From positions 1-64,000 of the forward strand of contig NZ_JAQSDO010000020.1 of assembly GCF_029945965.1 (NCBI RefSeq): 64,000 nt of DNA. Reading direction: 5' to 3'. Every line of letters starts with the position of its first letter. Within the stretch, counting starts at the first letter, position 1. Positions 16,020 to 39,053 of this stretch are shown in pieces. The notes below the pieces were generated by a model that did no database searches, was not told the origin of the DNA, and saw only the letters and a list, made by a program, of their open reading frames with translations. The position numbers and the translations under genes were made by a program. The stretch comes from Thermomonas sp. Its GTDB lineage: Bacteria > Pseudomonadota > Gammaproteobacteria > Xanthomonadales > Xanthomonadaceae.

Positions 16020-16742
16020 CTATTTGGGCGCGTCGATGCTCAGGGTCGGATCGTTGATGCGCGAGTACCGCATCGTCATGGTCATCGGAGTGCCCTTGCT
16101 GTCCATGTTCATGCGCATCTGCAATGGCATGCCATCAGGTGCGATCCACAGTGTGTAATCGCTCGCCTTGGGTACGGACTGGCGCACGTTGTACTTCTGG
16201 GTACTGATGCCCTCGACCGATTCGCTGCCCATGCCTTCGGCGGTCATGCTGGCTTCGGCCTCCTTGAAGTTGCCCGGATCGCGCCACTTGCTCGTGGTGT
16301 TCTTCGGCATCGGCACTTTCATGCTGCGACCTTGCGTCGACATGTACATGGTGTCGCCGACGATGATCTGGGTGCCGACGCCGGCCATCTCCATGCGAAA
16401 GCGGTCCGGTGCCACGAAGTCGACTTCATTGCCCATCATGGCTTTCGGCCCGCCGCTCATTTTCATGCTGACGTGGTAGCTGGTGGCATCCATCATTTTG
16501 TGCATCGAGGCGATCACGGCCTCGCGCGGGCTGGTCATCGGGTTTATCGCATCCGCCGCAGCTGCAAAGTGCTCGCTGGCACTGGCTTTGGTGTCCTCCC
16601 GGGGTGCATCCATCGATGGGGGCGCTGCGAGATCGGCGTCGGTGGCTGCGGGCGCAGACGGCTTGCAGGCGGCCAAGCCCAATAGCAGGGCAAGGCCCAG
16701 CAGTGACAGCGAAGGCAGTGTGCGCGGCAGGATCATGGTCAT
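16020..16742 (-). CDS. Lipoprotein with LolA/LppX-like features
   Basis: The 240-residue product begins with a lipoprotein signal ending in LLLGLAAC (modified Cys about residue 26). It is followed by an Ala/Asp-rich linker and a domain with repeated pattern DRFRMEMAGVGTQIIVGDTMYMST and YTLWIAPDGMPLQMRMN, as in LolA/LolB/LppX-type lipid-binding folds. Methionine is unusually frequent. The start codon is the ATG at 16742; an upstream TTG and a second ATG at 16736 are also in frame. It ends 32 bases before the SoeA-like gene on the same strand, so it could share the transcript. Function unknown. Confidence 0.6.
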   Translation of the reverse strand: MTMILPRTLPSLSLLGLALLLGLAACKPSAPAATDADLAAPPSMDAPREDTKASASEHFAAAADAINPMTSPREAVIASMHKMMDATSYHVSMKMSGGPKAMMGNEVDFVAPDRFRMEMAGVGTQIIVGDTMYMSTQGRSMKVPMPKNTTSKWRDPGNFKEAEASMTAEGMGSESVEGISTQKYNVRQSVPKASDYTLWIAPDGMPLQMRMNMDSKGTPMTMTMRYSRINDPTLSIDAPK

Positions 16743-16830
16743 GGTGGCCAATTGGTCATGGGTGTTGGTTGTTCAAACGCGTTCCCTGCGGAATCGAGGC
16801 CAGAAAGCCGTATGCCGGCATAATCGACGC

Positions 16831-17625
16831 ATGGTCGATCTTCCGGGCGACATCGCACTGCGTGGCGGCATCTTCCTTGGCGTGCTGGGCACGCTAATGG
16901 TGCTGGAGGTGTTCCTGCGTGGCCCCAATCCGCCACCCATGCGTGGTCGGCGCTGGCCAGCCAATGCCGGCCTGGTCCTGCTCGACACCGTACTTGCGCG
17001 GCTGTTGCTGCCTGCCGGCGTGGTCGGTGCTGCCGCGTGGGCACAGGCGCAGGGGTTCGGACTGCTGAATCAGCTCGCGTGGCCTGCATGGCTGGAGTTC
17101 GGCATCGCGCTGGTGCTGCTGGATCTGGCGATCTATTGGCAACACCGGCTGTTGCATGCATGGCCCTTGCTGTGGCGGTTGCACCGGGTCCATCACACCG
17201 ACCGCACCCTGGACGCGACATCGGCCCTGCGCTTCCACCCGTTGGAAATGCTGCTGTCGCTGGCGATCAAGATCGCGCTTGCGGTTCTTCTAGGCATCCC
17301 GCCAGTGGCGGCAATGGTGTTCGAAGTGCTGCTCTCGAGCTTCGCCCTGGTCACCCACGCGAATCTCGCGTTGCCGCACTGGCTGGATCGCCCTGTACGC
17401 GCGCTATTGGTGACACCCAACATGCATCGCATCCACCATTCCACCGATGTCGATGAGCAGCATCGCAACTTCGGCTTCAACTTGAGTCTGTGGGACCACG
17501 TGTTCGGCAGCTTCGTCGCGCACGCGCGCAGCCAGCCGCAGGATTTCGGCGTTGACGGCGTCGATATGGACGAGGCGACGGGTTTCGTCGCGCTGCTGCG
17601 CGAGCCGTTCGTGACCCGCGATTAG
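16831..17625 (+). CDS. Sterol desaturase / fatty acid hydroxylase family membrane protein
   Basis: This 264-residue membrane enzyme carries the di-iron histidine motifs of the FA-hydroxylase superfamily: HRLLH (HxxxH), HRVHH (HxxHH) and, after two further membrane spans, HRIHH. These proteins hydroxylate or desaturate lipids or carotenoids using oxygen. The ATG at 16831 starts MVDLPGDIALRGG, which fits the membrane topology. It is divergent from the lipoprotein gene and converges on the radical SAM operon, separated from it by a REP palindrome. The substrate is unknown. Confidence 0.85.
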   Translation: MVDLPGDIALRGGIFLGVLGTLMVLEVFLRGPNPPPMRGRRWPANAGLVLLDTVLARLLLPAGVVGAAAWAQAQGFGLLNQLAWPAWLEFGIALVLLDLAIYWQHRLLHAWPLLWRLHRVHHTDRTLDATSALRFHPLEMLLSLAIKIALAVLLGIPPVAAMVFEVLLSSFALVTHANLALPHWLDRPVRALLVTPNMHRIHHSTDVDEQHRNFGFNLSLWDHVFGSFVAHARSQPQDFGVDGVDMDEATGFVALLREPFVTRD

Positions 17626-17636
17626 CAGGATCTCTA

Positions 17637-17704
17637 GTAGGAGCGCCCTTCAGGGCGCGATGAAGATTCGTCGCACTCTATCGCGCCCTGAAGGGCGCTC
17701 CTAC
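17637..17704. repeat. REP doublet: perfect inverted repeat between convergent genes
   Basis: Arms at 17637-17661 and 17680-17704 are perfect reverse complements of 25 bases. The left arm starts GTAGGAGCGCCCTTCAGGGC. Each arm itself contains the palindrome GCGCCCTtcaGGGCGC. This is the REPIN-like layout common in Xanthomonadaceae and Pseudomonas, mobilised by RAYT transposases. The last four bases supply the TAG stop of the minus-strand gene. As RNA it would fold strongly and may end or protect transcripts from both sides. Confidence 0.9.
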
Positions 17705-18384
17705 ATGCTCAGGCTGCGCAGCCAGTTGGCGAGGCGAGTTTGTTCCGGCAGTGGATCACGCAAGGCATCCAGTGCCGACCACAACGGCGAGAGGTCATCG
17801 ATGGCATCGACATCGCGCAAGCTGCGCAGGCGCGTGATTGACACGTCGCCCAAGCCATCGCAGAAGCGCGTGGCGGTATCGGCCCGCGACCACGGCGTTG
17901 TTGACCATGCCATTGCCGGCACGCCGCCACTGGTGGCGAACAACCAGAAGCCGCCGTCGATACTCGGGCCGAGCACATGCTGGCTCGTTTGCAGGCCATG
18001 CGTGGCAGCGACGATGTCGGCGACGGTGATCTGCGGGGTGTCCGCGCCCAGCAACAGGGCTGCATCGAAGCGAGTGAACATGGACTCGGTGACGTGGCAC
18101 ATGCGCGCGCCGAGATCGCCTTCGCCCTGATCGATACGGGGTAACGAGGCCCACAACAGCTCGTCGAGTGCAGCGGTTTCGGCGACGGCCCAATGCGTCG
18201 TCAGCAGCGGCATGTCTCGTTGTGCCTGGCGCGCCACCGCAGCCACCGCGTCCGCAGCGAGCAGGTGGAACTGCTGCGCGGCGTCGACACCGATGCCGGC
18301 GGCCAGCCGCGTCTTCAATGGCGAATGCCGCGGCGTCTTGACGAAGATCGCGATGCCAACGCGCCCATGCTTCGGCAGCGTCAT
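17701..18384 (-). CDS. TIGR04282-type transferase (rSAM/selenodomain-associated transferase 1)
   Basis: This 227-residue protein has a nucleotidyl/glycosyl-transferase fold of the CofC/DUF2064 type: VGIAIFVKTPRHSPLKTRLAAGIG at the N-terminus, FDAALLLGADTPQIT (acidic metal site) in the middle, and VLGPSIDGGFWLFA. Family members accompany ArsS-type radical SAM enzymes and a second transferase, as here, and are annotated as arsenosugar-pathway glycosyltransferases. It overlaps the upstream gene by ATGA. Its stop codon comes from the adjoining REP element, so the original C-terminus may have been altered by a few residues. Confidence 0.85.
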   Translation of the reverse strand: MTLPKHGRVGIAIFVKTPRHSPLKTRLAAGIGVDAAQQFHLLAADAVAAVARQAQRDMPLLTTHWAVAETAALDELLWASLPRIDQGEGDLGARMCHVTESMFTRFDAALLLGADTPQITVADIVAATHGLQTSQHVLGPSIDGGFWLFATSGGVPAMAWSTTPWSRADTATRFCDGLGDVSITRLRSLRDVDAIDDLSPLWSALDALRDPLPEQTRLANWLRSLSM

Positions 18385-19055
18385 GTTCGCCGGGATTCCT
18401 GTTTTGCCTGGGCCGCTGTCAGCCGCAGGTGTCGCGCGGTGGTGCGCAGCCAACCCTGTTCGGCATATTTGCGCGCACTGGTCGATAGCGTTCCGCCGAC
18501 ACAGCGCAATGGCAGGCCGATACGACGCGCGCGCCATACCATCGCGTGGTCCTCGCCGTATGCCAGCGCGGGATCGAATGGGCCAAGTCGCGCCGCATCG
18601 TCGCGGTGCAGGACGAAACCCTGGTCGCCGAATGGCAGGCTCAGCCAGCGTGCGCGCAGGTTGGCGCCGAGTGCATTGAACGCCATCGGCCAAGGGCCAT
18701 CGTCGGCGAACGCGAGCCGGAACCAACCTAGCGCACGCGGCATGCTGGCGAGGTACTCGCGCAATGCCGGCCAGGTATCCGGTTGCAGGCGCGAATCGGC
18801 ATGCAACAGCCACAGCCACTGGCCATCCGCGGCGGTGATCCCTGCATTGAGCTGGTGGGCGCGTCCAGCTGGTGCCGACAGTGCCACGCAATGGTCCGGC
18901 ACATCGTTCGATTGCGCATCGCCATCGGCGAATACCAGCAGCAGCTGCGGGCGCGATGCGAGTTGCGACAGTTGTTCGACCAAGCCGCGCCAGGCAACAT
19001 CGCCCGGGCCTACTGGAATGATTATCGACAAGGACGGAATGTTCGGGTCATGCAT
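18381..19055 (-). CDS. TIGR04283-type family 2 glycosyltransferase (rSAM/selenodomain-associated transferase 2)
   Basis: This 224-residue protein is a short GT2 enzyme: SLSIIIPVGPGD at the start, GRAHQLNAGITAADGQWLWL, the acidic LHADSRL, and GFRLAF-like GWFRLAFADDG before FGDQGFVLHR. It belongs to the family that is regularly adjacent to TIGR04282 and an ArsS-like radical SAM protein. It should transfer a sugar or nucleotide-sugar part to the product of the radical SAM step. Spacing to the radical SAM gene is six bases, and it overlaps the next gene by four. The acceptor is unknown. Confidence 0.85.
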   Translation of the reverse strand: MHDPNIPSLSIIIPVGPGDVAWRGLVEQLSQLASRPQLLLVFADGDAQSNDVPDHCVALSAPAGRAHQLNAGITAADGQWLWLLHADSRLQPDTWPALREYLASMPRALGWFRLAFADDGPWPMAFNALGANLRARWLSLPFGDQGFVLHRDDAARLGPFDPALAYGEDHAMVWRARRIGLPLRCVGGTLSTSARKYAEQGWLRTTARHLRLTAAQAKQESRRT

Positions 19056-19061
19056 TCCGGA

Positions 19062-20042
19062 TCAGGCCAGGCTGCCGCCGCAACTGCTGCCAGCACCTGC
19101 GGTGCAGCCGTAGCAATGCTGGGCGAAGGCGATTGGCCGCGTTTCGATTTCGTCCAGTCGCGCGATATCCCACAACGTGGTGCGCGCGTGGCCGAGTTCG
19201 ATTCCCAGCATCTGGTTGAAATCGCAGTCGTAAAGGCCGCCATCCCAGCCGACCGAGACCAGGTTGCGGCACATCACGCCGAGTGCGGCGCGTGGATTGA
19301 AATTGTCGATCAGCAGTTGCATGTAGGCATCGAGTTCACCGTCGCGCTCGAGCTCATGCAGGAAGCGCTTTATCGGCATGTTGGTGATCGTGAACAACTG
19401 ATTGAACGTGATGTCGAAGTCGTCGTGCAGGCGCTGGCGATAGTCGTTTTCTAGCAACGCCTGCGATGGCGGCAACTTCGCGCCGATCGGGTTGTAGACC
19501 AGGTCCAGTTCCAGCCCGCTGCCAGATGTGCCGTAGCCAAGAGCGTTTAATCGCAGGAGCGCATCGATACTCCCGCCGAACACGCCCTTGCCGCGCTGCT
19601 TGTTGACGTTTTCGGGCGTGTAACAGGGCAGCGAGGCCACCACTGCCACGCCTTGCGCGGCGAGGAATTCGGCAGTGTCTTCCTGGCCTGGCTCGAACAG
19701 CACCGTGAGGTTGCAACGATCAATTACCTTCAGCCCGCGTGCACGGCCTGCGCGCACCAGTTCGCGGAATTGCGGATGCAGTTCGGGCGCACCACCGGTC
19801 AGGTCCAGCGTATGCAGTGCCGGCGCCGTATCCATCAATTCGATCAGCCGCGTGATGCCGCGGGCATCCACTGCTTCGTGGCGTTTCGGCCCGGATTCGA
19901 CATGGCAATGGGTGCAGGCCAGGTTGCAGCGCGCGGTCAGGTTGACCTGCAGGATCTCCAGTGGCGTGCGTGCAAGTGCGATGCCGTGGCGCTGCAGCGT
20001 GCGTGTGAAAGATCGCGTGGGTGCAGCGAGGACGGCATTCAT
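19062..20042 (-). CDS. arsS: ArsS-type radical SAM protein with DUF3641 C-terminus
   Basis: This 326-residue protein has the radical SAM cluster motif CNLACTHC (C39, C43, C46) and the SAM-binding LTGGAPELHP, then the DUF3641 domain. The Cys-rich tail (HCYGCTAGAGSSCGG, last 20 residues) is the selenodomain in which some relatives use selenocysteine; here all positions are Cys. ArsS transfers a 5'-deoxyadenosyl group to dimethylarsenite in arsenosugar synthesis in some bacteria. No arsM methyltransferase is seen in this window, so the substrate here may differ. ATGA overlap with the DUF3047 gene shows coupling. Confidence 0.85.
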   Translation of the reverse strand: MNAVLAAPTRSFTRTLQRHGIALARTPLEILQVNLTARCNLACTHCHVESGPKRHEAVDARGITRLIELMDTAPALHTLDLTGGAPELHPQFRELVRAGRARGLKVIDRCNLTVLFEPGQEDTAEFLAAQGVAVVASLPCYTPENVNKQRGKGVFGGSIDALLRLNALGYGTSGSGLELDLVYNPIGAKLPPSQALLENDYRQRLHDDFDITFNQLFTITNMPIKRFLHELERDGELDAYMQLLIDNFNPRAALGVMCRNLVSVGWDGGLYDCDFNQMLGIELGHARTTLWDIARLDEIETRPIAFAQHCYGCTAGAGSSCGGSLA

Positions 20043-20767
20043 GGTGTCGCTCCCGTGACCGCGAAGCGGATGTCGCCAAAAAAGCTCACCGTTGATTCCC
20101 CCGTGTTGTCGGTGTCCACTGCGACCGCGATCCCGGTGATGCGCGGGTCTGCGCTGCCGAATGCTCGTTTGTAGTCAGCGGCAACGTCGCGCTGCAGTGA
20201 CACCCACTGTCCTTGCCGAGCTGTGCCGCTGGTCGCCACGATCATCTTGACGAAGCCGGTGTAGGCGTTGTCGCGGATCGTGCCCACCGGTTGTTTGTTG
20301 TCCCAGACATAGCAGAGCGCTGCCGGCGGCAACTGGTCGCCATAGCGGGCGCGGCCGAGTTTGTAGGCGATGCGTTCGCCGAACGACATCTGCGCCGGCT
20401 TGCGATCGAAGAAGACATACAGGCGCGCCGAATAATCGTCGCCGGACTTCGATGTCAGGTCGGCCTTGTCGAGGACCCTTTCAGTCTTCCAGCGCCAGTG
20501 CAGCTGTCCTTCGACAAGTGGATCGATGCTCAACGCGTAGCGCAGCGAGGCCGCGGCGTTGTCGGCGCGGGCGCGCAGCACCGTGATGCCGCTGTCATCG
20601 ACGAGGTCGAAACGGGTTTGGCGTTCCACCTTGGGGATCGGCTGCACGCTCCAGCCGGCTGGCACTGCGGTGCCCGGCGCTACGCTGGAAAAGCGAACGG
20701 GTTGCGCGGCCAGCGCCAGCACCGGCAGCAGCGTGAGCAGCCACAGCCAATGCATGTTTCGGCTCAT
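20039..20767 (-). CDS. Exported DUF3047 protein
   Basis: This 242-residue protein has a signal peptide (MSRNMHWLWLLTLLPVLALA) and a mature domain with DYSARLYVFFDRKPAQMSF, CYVWDNKQPVGTI and the final FFGDIRFA pattern of DUF3047. These are probably beta-sandwich periplasmic proteins of unknown role. ATG at 20767 overlaps the upstream stop as ATGA, and its own stop overlaps the radical SAM start in the same way, so the three genes are tightly coupled. Confidence 0.8.
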   Translation of the reverse strand: MSRNMHWLWLLTLLPVLALAAQPVRFSSVAPGTAVPAGWSVQPIPKVERQTRFDLVDDSGITVLRARADNAAASLRYALSIDPLVEGQLHWRWKTERVLDKADLTSKSGDDYSARLYVFFDRKPAQMSFGERIAYKLGRARYGDQLPPAALCYVWDNKQPVGTIRDNAYTGFVKMIVATSGTARQGQWVSLQRDVAADYKRAFGSADPRITGIAVAVDTDNTGESTVSFFGDIRFAVTGATP

Positions 20768-22905
20768 GCGCCGCGACCCCGTTTCCAACGGTGGTAGCGC
20801 TCGGCAAGCTGCAACAGTTTTTCAGGCTGATGGCGCTTGCGGCGTTCACCGGCCACCGACTTGATCGCTTCGGCGAAGGTTGGATAGGCGAATACCGTGC
20901 CCAGGATCTTGTCCAATCCAATACCCTGCTTCATCGCCAGCGCGAATACCGCGATCAACTCGCCAGCGCGCTCGCCGACCACGCTGGCACCCAGGATTTT
21001 GTCCTTGCCCGGCGTGACCAGCACCTTGACGAAACCGGCGGTGGCGCCTTCGGCGACCGCCCGATCCAGCCCGGACATTTCGTACTTCACCACCTCGACC
21101 TCAATGCCTTGCTCCTTCGCCTCCGCCTCACTCAGGCCCACGCGCGCGGCCTCGGGTTCGGTGAAGGTGCAAGCCGGCAGCACCCGATAGTCGGCGCGGA
21201 ACGACTTGAACCCACCGAACAGCGCATTGGCCGCGGCATACCAGGCCTGGTGCGCGCCGGCATGGGTCAGCTGGTATGGGCCGGTGACATCGCCGACGCA
21301 ATAGATATTGGGGAATCGCGTGCGCAGGAATTCGTCGGTTTCGATGGTCTGGTTCTTGCGCAGGCCGAGGTCGAGCGTGTCCACGCCATAGCCATCGACA
21401 TTGGCGCTGCGGCCGATTGCGACCAGCAGCACATCGAAGTTGATCTTGTCTTTTTCCTTGCCGTGCTCGACCACCAATGCCGGTGAATCGCCGCCTTTGA
21501 TCTCGACCGCCTTGTGCCCCAGGCGGACATCGACGCCATCGTGCTCCAGCGCGGCCTGCACCACGGTCGCAACATCGCGGTCTTCGCGACCCAGCAATTG
21601 CTTGCCCATTTCAACAAGACTGACCTTGCTGCCAAGGCGCGCGAAGGCCTGCGCCAGTTCGCAGCCGATCGGCCCGCCCCCCAGGATTACCAGCCGCTTC
21701 GGCAACGTCTGCAGATCCCAGATCGAGTCCGAGGTCAGGTATGCGACCTGGTCCAATCCGGGGATCTTCGGTACCAGCGGGCGACCACCCGCGGCGATCA
21801 CGATATTGCGACTCGTCAGGGTCTTGCCGTTTACCTCTACTTCCCATGGCGAGATGATCTTGGCCTCGCCCTGGACCACGTCGACACCGAGCTTGCGGTA
21901 ACGCTGCGGCGAGTCGTGCGGGGCGATGTCGCGGATCGAGTCGCGTACGTGCGAAATGACTTTGGCAAAATCGACCTCGAGTTTGCCCGTGGTCACGCCG
22001 AAACGCACACCATCACGTGCTTCGCTGGCAGCGCGCGCGGCGCGGATCAGCGCCTTGGATGGCACGCAACCGCGGTTGAGGCAGTCGCCGCCCATCTCGG
22101 CCTTTTCGACCAGGGTGACCTTGGCGCGCACGGTCGCCGCGATATAGCTGGTGACCAGGCCGGCCGCGCCAGCACCGATCACGATCAGATTGCGGTCAAA
22201 TTTCCTGGGCTTGTTCCAGCCTTTGTAGACACGGCGCGCGCGCAAGCTATCGAGCACTTTGCGTGCGATCAGCGGCAGCAGGCCCAGCGCGACGAAGGCC
22301 AGCAGCATGCGCCAGCTGAGAATCCCGGACAGCGATTGAAGCTGGCCCAGCTCGCGACCGGCATTCACGTAAACCACGGTGCCAGCGAGCATGCCAATCT
22401 GGCTGACCCAATAGAACGTCCACGCACGAATCCCGGTCAGGCCCATGGCCAGGTTGATCACGAAGAACGGCAATAGCGGCACCAGCCGCAGGGCGAACAG
22501 GTAGAAGCCGCCTTCGCGTTCGATGCCGGCATCGATGCGCTTGAGCCGGTCGCCGAAGCGCTTGCGCACGCTGTCGCGCAGCAGGTAGCGCGAGGCCAGC
22601 ATCGCCAAAGTCGCGCCGATGCTGGCCGAGAAGGAGGCGATCAGCACACCGCGCCACATCCCGAACACCGCACCGGCGAACAGGGTCAGCAGGGTCGCAC
22701 CGGGTAGCGACAGTGCGGTGACCACGATGTACAAGCCGGCGAAGGCGAGCGCGGCGCCGAGCGGATGCGCATCGACCTGGCCACGCGCCTGTCCCAGCAA
22801 CGATTGCAGCTTGGCCAGGGTCAGGTACTCGGCGCCGCCACCGAAATACAGCGCCAGCGCGGCAACGATGACGGTGAGCAGGAAGAGAGTTTTGGTACGA
22901 GACAT
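20764..22905 (-). CDS. VTT (TVP38/DedA-like) membrane domain fused to a flavin disulfide oxidoreductase
   Basis: The 713-residue protein joins two modules. Residues 1-230 are membrane helices with the VTT/SNARE-associated signature (GAVFGMWRGVLIASFSASIG, RLVPLLPFFVINLAMGLTGI). Residues 238-713 are a pyridine-nucleotide-disulfide oxidoreductase: IVIGAGAAGL (FAD, 242-250), redox-active CLNRGC (C275, C280), an NAD(P)-binding GGGPIGCELAQAF, and the dimerisation domain. The usual active-site His-Pro of lipoamide dehydrogenases is replaced by AYPTFAE, as in mercuric reductases, but the MerA C-terminal Cys pair is missing. Such fusions occur in other bacteria. The electron acceptor is unknown. It starts 10 bases after the small ORF. 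Confidence 0.85.
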   Translation of the reverse strand: MSRTKTLFLLTVIVAALALYFGGGAEYLTLAKLQSLLGQARGQVDAHPLGAALAFAGLYIVVTALSLPGATLLTLFAGAVFGMWRGVLIASFSASIGATLAMLASRYLLRDSVRKRFGDRLKRIDAGIEREGGFYLFALRLVPLLPFFVINLAMGLTGIRAWTFYWVSQIGMLAGTVVYVNAGRELGQLQSLSGILSWRMLLAFVALGLLPLIARKVLDSLRARRVYKGWNKPRKFDRNLIVIGAGAAGLVTSYIAATVRAKVTLVEKAEMGGDCLNRGCVPSKALIRAARAASEARDGVRFGVTTGKLEVDFAKVISHVRDSIRDIAPHDSPQRYRKLGVDVVQGEAKIISPWEVEVNGKTLTSRNIVIAAGGRPLVPKIPGLDQVAYLTSDSIWDLQTLPKRLVILGGGPIGCELAQAFARLGSKVSLVEMGKQLLGREDRDVATVVQAALEHDGVDVRLGHKAVEIKGGDSPALVVEHGKEKDKINFDVLLVAIGRSANVDGYGVDTLDLGLRKNQTIETDEFLRTRFPNIYCVGDVTGPYQLTHAGAHQAWYAAANALFGGFKSFRADYRVLPACTFTEPEAARVGLSEAEAKEQGIEVEVVKYEMSGLDRAVAEGATAGFVKVLVTPGKDKILGASVVGERAGELIAVFALAMKQGIGLDKILGTVFAYPTFAEAIKSVAGERRKRHQPEKLLQLAERYHRWKRGRGA

Positions 22906-22914
22906 CGGCTGGCC

Positions 22915-22995
22915 TTAGCAGTAGGTGTCGAGCAAGAGGTCGCCGCTGCCATCCAGGGCTTCAGCATAGACATCCGGGAGCAGGTCGTGGTCCAT
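22915..22995 (-). CDS. 26-residue acidic ORF ending in Cys, first in the radical SAM operon
   Basis: An 81-base frame starts ATG at 22995 with AGGA a few bases upstream, and stops 10 bases before the VTT-flavoprotein start. It reads MDHDLLPDVY... and ends LLLDTYC. It holds seven acidic residues, one Lys/Arg-free stretch throughout, and a single Cys as the last residue. Small acidic ORFs with a fixed C-terminal residue beside a radical SAM gene are what RiPP precursors look like, but it could equally be a leader peptide. It would be missed by automatic gene calling. Confidence 0.4.
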   Translation of the reverse strand: MDHDLLPDVYAEALDGSGDLLLDTYC

Positions 22996-38276: not shown

Positions 38277-39053
38277 ATGAGCACAACCGACAAGACACCC
38301 GACCAGGGCAGCGCCGGCACCACCCATTTCGGTTACCGCGAAGTGCCGACTGCAGAGAAACAGAAACTCGTCGGCGAGGTGTTTTCCTCGGTGGCGGCAA
38401 AGTACGACCTGATGAACGATGCCATGAGCCTCGGCATCCATCGGGTGTGGAAGCGCTATTTCGTTGCCACCGCGCAGGTGCGCAAGGGCGACCGCGTGCT
38501 CGACCTGGCCGGCGGCACCGGCGACATCGCCGCGCTGTTGCGCGAGCGCGTCGGCGATGCAGGGGAACTGGTGTTGGGCGACATCAACGGCGAGATGTTG
38601 CGCGTCGGCCGTGACCGCATGACTGATCGCGGCAACGTGCGCGGTTTCGAGTATGTGCAGTGCAATGCCGAGGCCCTGCCGTTCCCCGATGCCAGCTTTG
38701 ACCTGGTCACGATTGCCTTCGGCCTGCGCAATGTCACCGACAAGGACGCGGGACTGCGCGAGATGCATCGGGTGCTGAAAGTCGGCGGACAGGCACGCGT
38801 GCTGGAGTTTTCCGAAGTAAAGGCCGACTGGTTCAAGCCGATCTACGATTTCCATTCGTTCAAGGTATTGCCTGCGCTGGGCAAACTCTTTGCCGGCGAC
38901 AGTGGCAGCTACCAGTACCTGGCCGAATCGATCCGCCAGCATCCGCCGCAGGACACACTGAAGGCCATGATGGAAACTGCCGGCTTCGCACGCTGCGACT
39001 ACAGGAACCTCAGCGGCGGCATCGTCGCCATCCACACCGGCTACAAGGTCTGA
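38277..39053 (+). CDS. ubiE: Ubiquinone/menaquinone C-methyltransferase
   Basis: This 258-residue SAM-dependent methyltransferase acts in quinone synthesis. It shows [41 protein letters not shown], the SAM loop [12 protein letters not shown], and the closing [12 protein letters not shown]. Length and motifs are typical. It is followed after two bases by a small membrane protein gene. Confidence 0.96.

Follow-up and report, generated by a model that had tools for sequence, protein, structure and literature searches.

An ArsS operon of Thermomonas sp. in which a 26-codon ORF seems to be what is left of arsM

The window, i.e., the whole 64,000-nucleotide stretch of Thermomonas sp. DNA analysed here, contains an operon built around the radical SAM enzyme ArsS, and a 26-codon ORF at the head of this operon seems, from its sequence, to be a remnant of the arsenic methyltransferase gene arsM. 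The best explanation, with a probability of about one half, is that of an inherited arsenosugar or arsenosugar-lipid operon that has lost its methylase and works on the dimethylarsenic of other organisms. The gene history in this explanation (descent and the loss of arsM) is well supported by the sequence comparisons and the substrate is what we infer: with arsM lost and the other genes intact, the substrate would come from elsewhere, the product would be a different one, or the operon would be in early decay.

Organisation of the operon

Re-reading of the window sequence placed six ORFs on the minus strand (17701..22995), all free of internal stops, with the positions, strand, overlaps and gaps that the initial annotation had ascribed to a coupled operon. 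ATGA overlaps couple the gene of the VTT-flavoprotein to that of the DUF3047 protein, the latter to the ArsS gene, and the genes of two transferases, T2 and T1, to each other; the small ORF is separated from the VTT-flavoprotein gene by 9 nt and the ArsS gene from the T2 gene by 6 nt. The starts of the DUF3047 gene (20767) and of the T1 gene (18384) lie slightly upstream of those in the ORF list, both within ATGA overlaps. The five genes downstream of the small ORF are intact and total more than 1700 codons without stops. A promoter scan upstream of the operon found none, with 0.8 matches expected by chance.

Family searches upheld the proposed core of ArsS with TIGR04283- and TIGR04282-type transferases, ArsS scoring over its cut-off and both T1 and T2 below their curated cut-offs. 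ArsS (19062..20042, minus strand), of the Cys form, matches TIGR04167 with 430 bits (cut-off 300) over model positions 2–303 of 303, and DUF3641 with 186 bits, over the Pfam cut-off; it has the radical SAM motif CNLACTHC at residue 39 and a C-terminal Cys-rich motif, CYGCTAGAGSSCGG, at residue 310, and a search for PDB relatives gave none at E <= 1e-5. T2 (18381..19055, minus strand) is a GT2-type glycosyltransferase similar to TIGR04283 (163.8 bits over positions 1–212 of 221) and, since it falls below the cut-off of 182, is considered a divergent relative and is not counted as a member of the arsenosugar glycosyltransferases. T1 (17701..18384, minus strand), the ATG of which at 18384 overlaps the T2 stop, is a CofC-like nucleotidyltransferase with a DUF2064 match over the Pfam cut-off and a TIGR04282 match of 123.7 bits over positions 1–189 of 189 (cut-off 134).

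The VTT-flavoprotein (20764..22905, minus strand, 713 aa) is a fusion of a VTT domain and a pyridine nucleotide-disulfide oxidoreductase, and its matches to VTT_dom, Pyr_redox_2 and Pyr_redox_dim all exceed the Pfam cut-offs. Disulfide reductases related to its oxidoreductase half carry a His-Pro-Thr-x-x-Glu motif; in the VTT-flavoprotein YPTFAE at residue 674 replaces this motif, and the redox CxxxxC is retained as CLNRGC at residue 275. The DUF3047 protein (20039..20767, minus strand) matches its family with 227 bits, exceeding the Pfam cut-off, and its hydrophobic N-terminus suggests export. Its structure is predicted with good confidence to be a β-sandwich resembling many carbohydrate-binding modules (CBMs); no one family was prominent in the fold comparison, where an epimerase domain and ciliary proteins head the aligner list with many CBMs beside them. 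Such a predicted fold suits an exported sugar binder and is no proof of one.

Two further genes accompany the operon. The fatty-acid-hydroxylase-superfamily gene (16831..17625, plus strand; Pfam FA_hydroxylase 103 bits, cut-off 31) is convergent with the operon and lies outside its transcript, yet belongs to the gene set; the NCBIfam model nearest to it is that of the ornithine lipid hydroxylase OlsE (97.6 bits, below the cut-off of 475). A DUF2092-like lipoprotein gene (16020..16751, minus strand), whose weak DUF2092 match is below the Pfam cut-off, closes the block that relatives lack at their empty site; copies 40–42% identical to it are found in the two nearest-operon loci of the sister genus that extend this far. 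Between the convergent T1 and hydroxylase genes, and overlapping the T1 stop, lies a long, nearly perfect inverted repeat, GTAGGAGCGCCCTTCAGGGCGCGA...TCGCGCCCTGAAGGGCGCTCCTAC (17637..17704), possibly a bidirectional terminator or a REP-like element; it was not among the matches of a terminator scan.

The small ORF and its relation to arsM

The small ORF (22915..22995, minus strand) consists of 26 codons and a TAA stop, and matches ArsM residues 1–26, the last of which is the second residue of the N-terminal Cys-Cys pair. Its alignment with the start of ArsM from the relative G037 is gap-free, with agreement at Met, Tyr, Glu, Leu, Asp-Leu and the second Cys, so that the N-terminal ArsM register Met - Tyr - Leu - AspLeu - Cys is present over 26 residues. 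A gap-free, anchored position-specific score was made from 23 ArsM starts, namely a 32-protein cluster minus ten proteins without the YYG-type motif, plus that of G037. The small ORF scored 7.4; the 200,000 shuffles averaged -37.6 (sd 8.4) and none scored as high. It ranked first among the 4182 open starts in the window, where the runner-up scored -9.8. This score superseded a weak test with a local HMM of ArsM N-termini, which gave the small ORF only 4.6 bits, matched or beaten by 17 of 5000 shuffles and by 3 of the window's 599 small ORFs, probably including the ORF itself. When the core was left unanchored, without the Met, chance windows in other loci outscored the small ORF, chance values reaching 15.6, and identity to the ArsM proteins of relatives is 27–31% over 26 residues only. 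The putative identification thus draws on register, length and place.

As to place, all four nearest operons, which belong to another genus of the family (G037, G132, G268 and G290), have a full arsM of 338–339 codons before the VTT-flavoprotein gene, where the window has the small ORF. It starts 184, 207, 274 and 288 nt from the WYL gene in these operons and the small ORF lies 182 nt from that gene, a similar spacing that supports the match. By sequence the gene encodes a true ArsM (E 8.5e-103 to arsenite methyltransferase, PDB code 5evj, over residues 5–336 of 338), although its 183 bits with NF008823 fall short of the cut-off of 263. The order WYL - [arsM] - VTT-flavoprotein - DUF3047 - ArsS is common to them and the window, and, where the contig reaches, continues as in the window with T2 - T1 - hydroxylase - DUF2092-like - oxidoreductase; two of them differ further by an extra 142-codon ORF after arsM.

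Since the small ORF ends after the second N-terminal Cys, and the SAM-binding core and the catalytic cysteines are missing from it, it would be a stub and not a methyltransferase. The initial annotation lists it as a small ORF beside five genes; a separate gene does not agree with its match to ArsM residues 1–26 and with the full arsM found there in the nearest operons; the same two observations indicate that the operon descends from one that contained arsM.

The sequence at the end of the ORF hints at the way in which arsM was lost. A Cys-Cys C-terminus is found in 31 of 32 ArsM proteins, and arsM of G037 has TGC TGC at residues 25–26 and again right before the stop; the small ORF ends in TAC TGC TAA, one base off TGC TGC and a stop. 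Recombination or slippage between the 5' Cys-Cys codons and the terminal Cys-Cys-stop would have removed about 310 codons and left 26, and a deletion between these two sites would yield a stub of just this kind, Met...Cys-Cys-stop. Counting first and second codon positions, 28 of the 52 sites of the stub are identical in G037. Fourfold sites would give a similar share (0.59, p 0.27), whereas more identity would be expected from the conservation of the VTT-flavoprotein (p 0.0003) and of ArsS (p 2e-7). The ArsS branch of the window measures 0.24 on the ArsS tree, compared with 0.23–0.33 in arsM-bearing sisters. With the stub decayed to the level of fourfold sites and the ArsS branch of ordinary length, the deletion seems to be old and the evolution of ArsS not to have been sped up, bearing in mind that 26 codons are few and are no proof of selection. 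As no close relative has the same deletion, selection on the window operon after the deletion is not demonstrable.

Search for arsM and other arsenic genes in the genome

The genome (3.24 Mb in 20 contigs, listed as 100% complete) was searched for an intact arsM. The best match to NF008823 reached 57 bits (cut-off 263); a profile of seven ArsM proteins, which gave 187–561 bits with the ArsM genes of three control genomes, reached at best 48 bits, and only over positions 59–180, the general SAM-binding core. The earlier observation that no arsM is seen was thereby confirmed for an intact gene, in the operon and elsewhere in the genome. The best match to the ArsM models (48–57 bits) is a methyltransferase gene of 290 codons (38466-38828, plus strand); matches as weak as this occur in genomes without ArsS too. 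A search of the genome for the arsenite exporter Acr3 did not find it, which leaves little other sign of arsenic exposure. In another genome of the genus, one that lacks ArsS, there is an ArsM (G018:C1:752753-753568) that passes the NF008823 cut-off with 363 bits and is of a different type from the operon's.

History of the block in the genus and the family

The operon is missing from 24 of 25 genomes of the genus. ArsS at E <= 1e-60 is missing from 23 of the 24 others, and the remaining one (G008) has a different ArsS, 58% identical; the WYL gene is present in 25 of 25, and the hydroxylase gene at E <= 1e-40 in one of 25, this being the operon's own. The WYL regions of seven relatives were read: in three (G022, G009, G001) the oxidoreductase gene lies 44–768 nt from WYL with no genes of the block between, and in the other four it was not found beside WYL. 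In the sister genus, the two loci where the contig reaches contain the whole block between the same two flanking genes, WYL and the oxidoreductase. Identity to that genus is 75–78% for WYL, 75–79% for ArsS and 78–80% for the oxidoreductase, with the same gene order, and in the two full loci the flanks and ArsS have diverged alike (WYL 75–76%, oxidoreductase 78–80%, ArsS 79%); the DUF3047 protein, T1 and T2 are only 51–61% identical. Judging from the like divergence and the common order, the best fit is a block that descended vertically and was lost from most of the genus; its acquisition by recombination through the flanking genes would be a less good fit.

In the family, ArsS was found in 30 of the 395 genomes examined. 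ArsM at 170 bits or more is present in 17 of these 30 and in one of 29 genomes without ArsS. The remaining 13 ArsS genomes, our genome included, lack ArsM, giving no more than 51 bits to the ArsM profile and in the general core only; two of them (G038 and G258) are only 81–82% complete. On the ArsS tree, a quick tree with several weak forks, the presence of ArsM switches at least eight times. No convincing arsM stub was found with the unanchored core in 19 arsM-less loci of relatives.

Other arsM-less ArsS operons of the family are, e.g., those of G201, G235, G250 and G265. Like our genome these genomes have no ArsM, and in the two of the four operons that were mapped (L198 and L199) the VTT-flavoprotein, T2, T1, hydroxylase and ArsS genes are together as in the window; they differ from it in the ArsS clade, in gene order, in having no DUF3047 gene and in that no arsM stub was found. 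Four arsM-less species of one genus have the operon in common, and the dN/dS values in these species are 0.08–0.16 for ArsS, 0.12–0.13 for the VTT-flavoprotein and 0.2–0.4 for T1 and T2 (five pairs). On these values the operon is under selection without ArsM in the four species, unless the loss of ArsM was very recent in each.

Neighbourhood of ArsS genes

A total of 120 ArsS loci was surveyed, comprising 80 from named genomes (the best 80 by similarity of at least 591), 39 from relatives and the window. Profiles made from the loci's own gene clusters were run on 8 kb either side of ArsS, and on 40 control stretches of 20 kb from seven genomes. The VTT-flavoprotein was found near ArsS in 52 of 120 loci, DUF3047 in 12, T1 in 70, T2 in 67, ArsM in 35, the fatty-acid hydroxylase in 33, DUF547 in 18, a phosphate transporter in 12 and MTAP-like genes in 11, each compared with 0/40 controls. 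The control stretches belong to the wider group of the window, whereas 80 of the loci span many phyla, the thresholds were set by us and the relatives are not independent; the contrast between ArsS loci and controls is large despite these limits of sampling. Adjacency by chance of the VTT-flavoprotein and DUF3047 genes, against which the initial annotation had asked for such a survey, is not supported by the empty controls, and both can be retained as real members of the neighbourhood. ArsM lies within 8 kb in 24 of the 52 VTT-flavoprotein loci and is missing there from 28; for the DUF3047 loci the numbers are four and eight. The hydroxylase co-occurs with ArsS and is found in the genus only with the operon, which suggests a lipid product.

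Discussion

A pathway to arsenosugars through ArsM and ArsS is known from Synechocystis (Xue et al. 2019 and Cheng et al. 2021, as cited in passages of PMC8552651 and PMC12159101). As far as those passages describe it, the window resembles this pathway in an ArsS over the curated cut-off, in the TIGR04283- and TIGR04282-like transferases beside it and in the close relative operon with a full ArsM; it differs in that its arsM is a putative stub, that VTT-flavoprotein, DUF3047 and lipid-hydroxylase-type genes are in the set, and that it is known from genes alone. Among the best-ranked matches in the openly licensed literature, no paper was found to be dedicated to ArsS operons that lack arsM, to an arsM truncated at this locus, or to VTT-flavoprotein, DUF3047 or hydroxylase genes beside ArsS.

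In the explanation preferred here, the operon would persist through the uptake of dimethylated arsenic made by other organisms; a passage of PMC11031232 describes dimethylarsenate as abundant where others methylate, e.g., in paddy soil, and this abundance prompts the scavenger reading. Possible roles of the VTT-flavoprotein are the reduction, at the membrane, of arsenic or of a disulfide, and the movement of lipid. ArsS would adenosylate the dimethylarsenic species and a phosphorylase would remove the adenine; MTAP-like genes adjoin ArsS in 11 of 120 loci. T1, by its CofC-like family, would activate the arsenoribose with a nucleotide and T2 would pass it to a lipid or glycerol acceptor; a lipid is suggested by the presence in the set of the VTT protein and of a hydroxylase nearest to the OlsE model, though below its cut-off. 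The hydroxylase would trim the lipid part, and the DUF3047 protein would bind the sugar outside the cytoplasm.

Several other explanations have to be weighed against this one. The genes left after the loss of arsM may be functionless and may simply not have acquired stops yet, on the way to the state of those sister species from which all of the block has gone; its absence from most of the genus, with WYL and the oxidoreductase 44–768 nt apart in three species, and the 51–61% identity of the DUF3047 protein, T1 and T2 to the other genus would accord with such early decay. It is nevertheless judged unlikely, as five ORFs have stayed stop-free over more than 1700 codons, ArsS has evolved no faster than in arsM-bearing sisters, the stub has fallen to the level of fourfold sites and the other genes have not, and dN/dS is low in the four arsM-less species of another genus. 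The initial annotation had suggested a product that is possibly not arsenical, in which case ArsS would adenosylate another soft nucleophile and the transferases would make a different glycolipid. The 13 of 30 ArsS genomes of the family in which ArsM is undetected and the lack of Acr3 speak for this, but the ancestor of the operon contained arsM, ArsM tracks ArsS (17/30 versus 1/29) and the window ArsS is unremarkable in sequence, so that such a substrate appears rather unlikely. The absence of arsM, which had been taken by itself to point to a non-arsenical product, does not carry that conclusion as it was put, given that arsM-less ArsS genomes recur and the ancestry is arsenical.

Dimethylarsenic might also be provided by a non-homologous or strongly diverged methyltransferase encoded elsewhere in the genome. 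There are 29 Methyltransf_25 matches in it, 27 of them over the cut-off, from which such an enzyme could come, but the best match to the ArsM profile (48 bits) covers the general SAM-binding core only and has its equals in ArsS-less genomes, which makes this source quite improbable. Finally, the small ORF could be a functional peptide, e.g., one with a C-terminal Cys that serves as the substrate of a radical SAM enzyme, or a leader through which translation is coupled to that of the VTT-flavoprotein gene; it retains its start, an AGGA upstream of it and a stop, 9 nt from where the next gene starts. Against this, when 80 ArsS loci were scanned for short ORFs with a final Tyr/Phe/Trp/His/Thr-Cys, there was nothing recurrent that could be a conserved precursor peptide, and homology and position fit ArsM; a coupling role is compatible with a stub, and a functional peptide as the origin of the ORF is regarded as highly improbable.

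Makers of dimethylarsenic and makers of arsenosugars or arsenolipids are usually inferred from arsM and arsS jointly. If close to half of the genomes with ArsS in a single family retain the pathway in the absence of arsM, either its two steps can be carried out by different organisms or there is some other role for ArsS. The window offers a dated example, a decayed stub next to conserved genes, as well as candidate new members of the pathway (the VTT-flavoprotein, the DUF3047 protein and the lipid-hydroxylase-type gene), and the arsM-less species are testable cases for a pathway without arsM. It is possible, if doubtful, that arsenosugar operons have lost arsM repeatedly and that the arsM-less state is selected. 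Such bacteria would have given up making dimethylarsenic and would, as scavengers, convert that of neighbouring organisms into arsenosugar lipids, or their ArsS would act on a new substrate; the stub would then catch one switch of this kind, and the presence of Cys-Cys codons near the start and at the end of arsM would ease the loss.

The phosphate-transporter-like gene of the survey, named from a reading of its sequence, lies near ArsS in 12 of 120 loci and mostly next to ArsM (L079, L130, L143, L196, L202-L204 and others); it may possibly serve for the entry of arsenate or phosphate.
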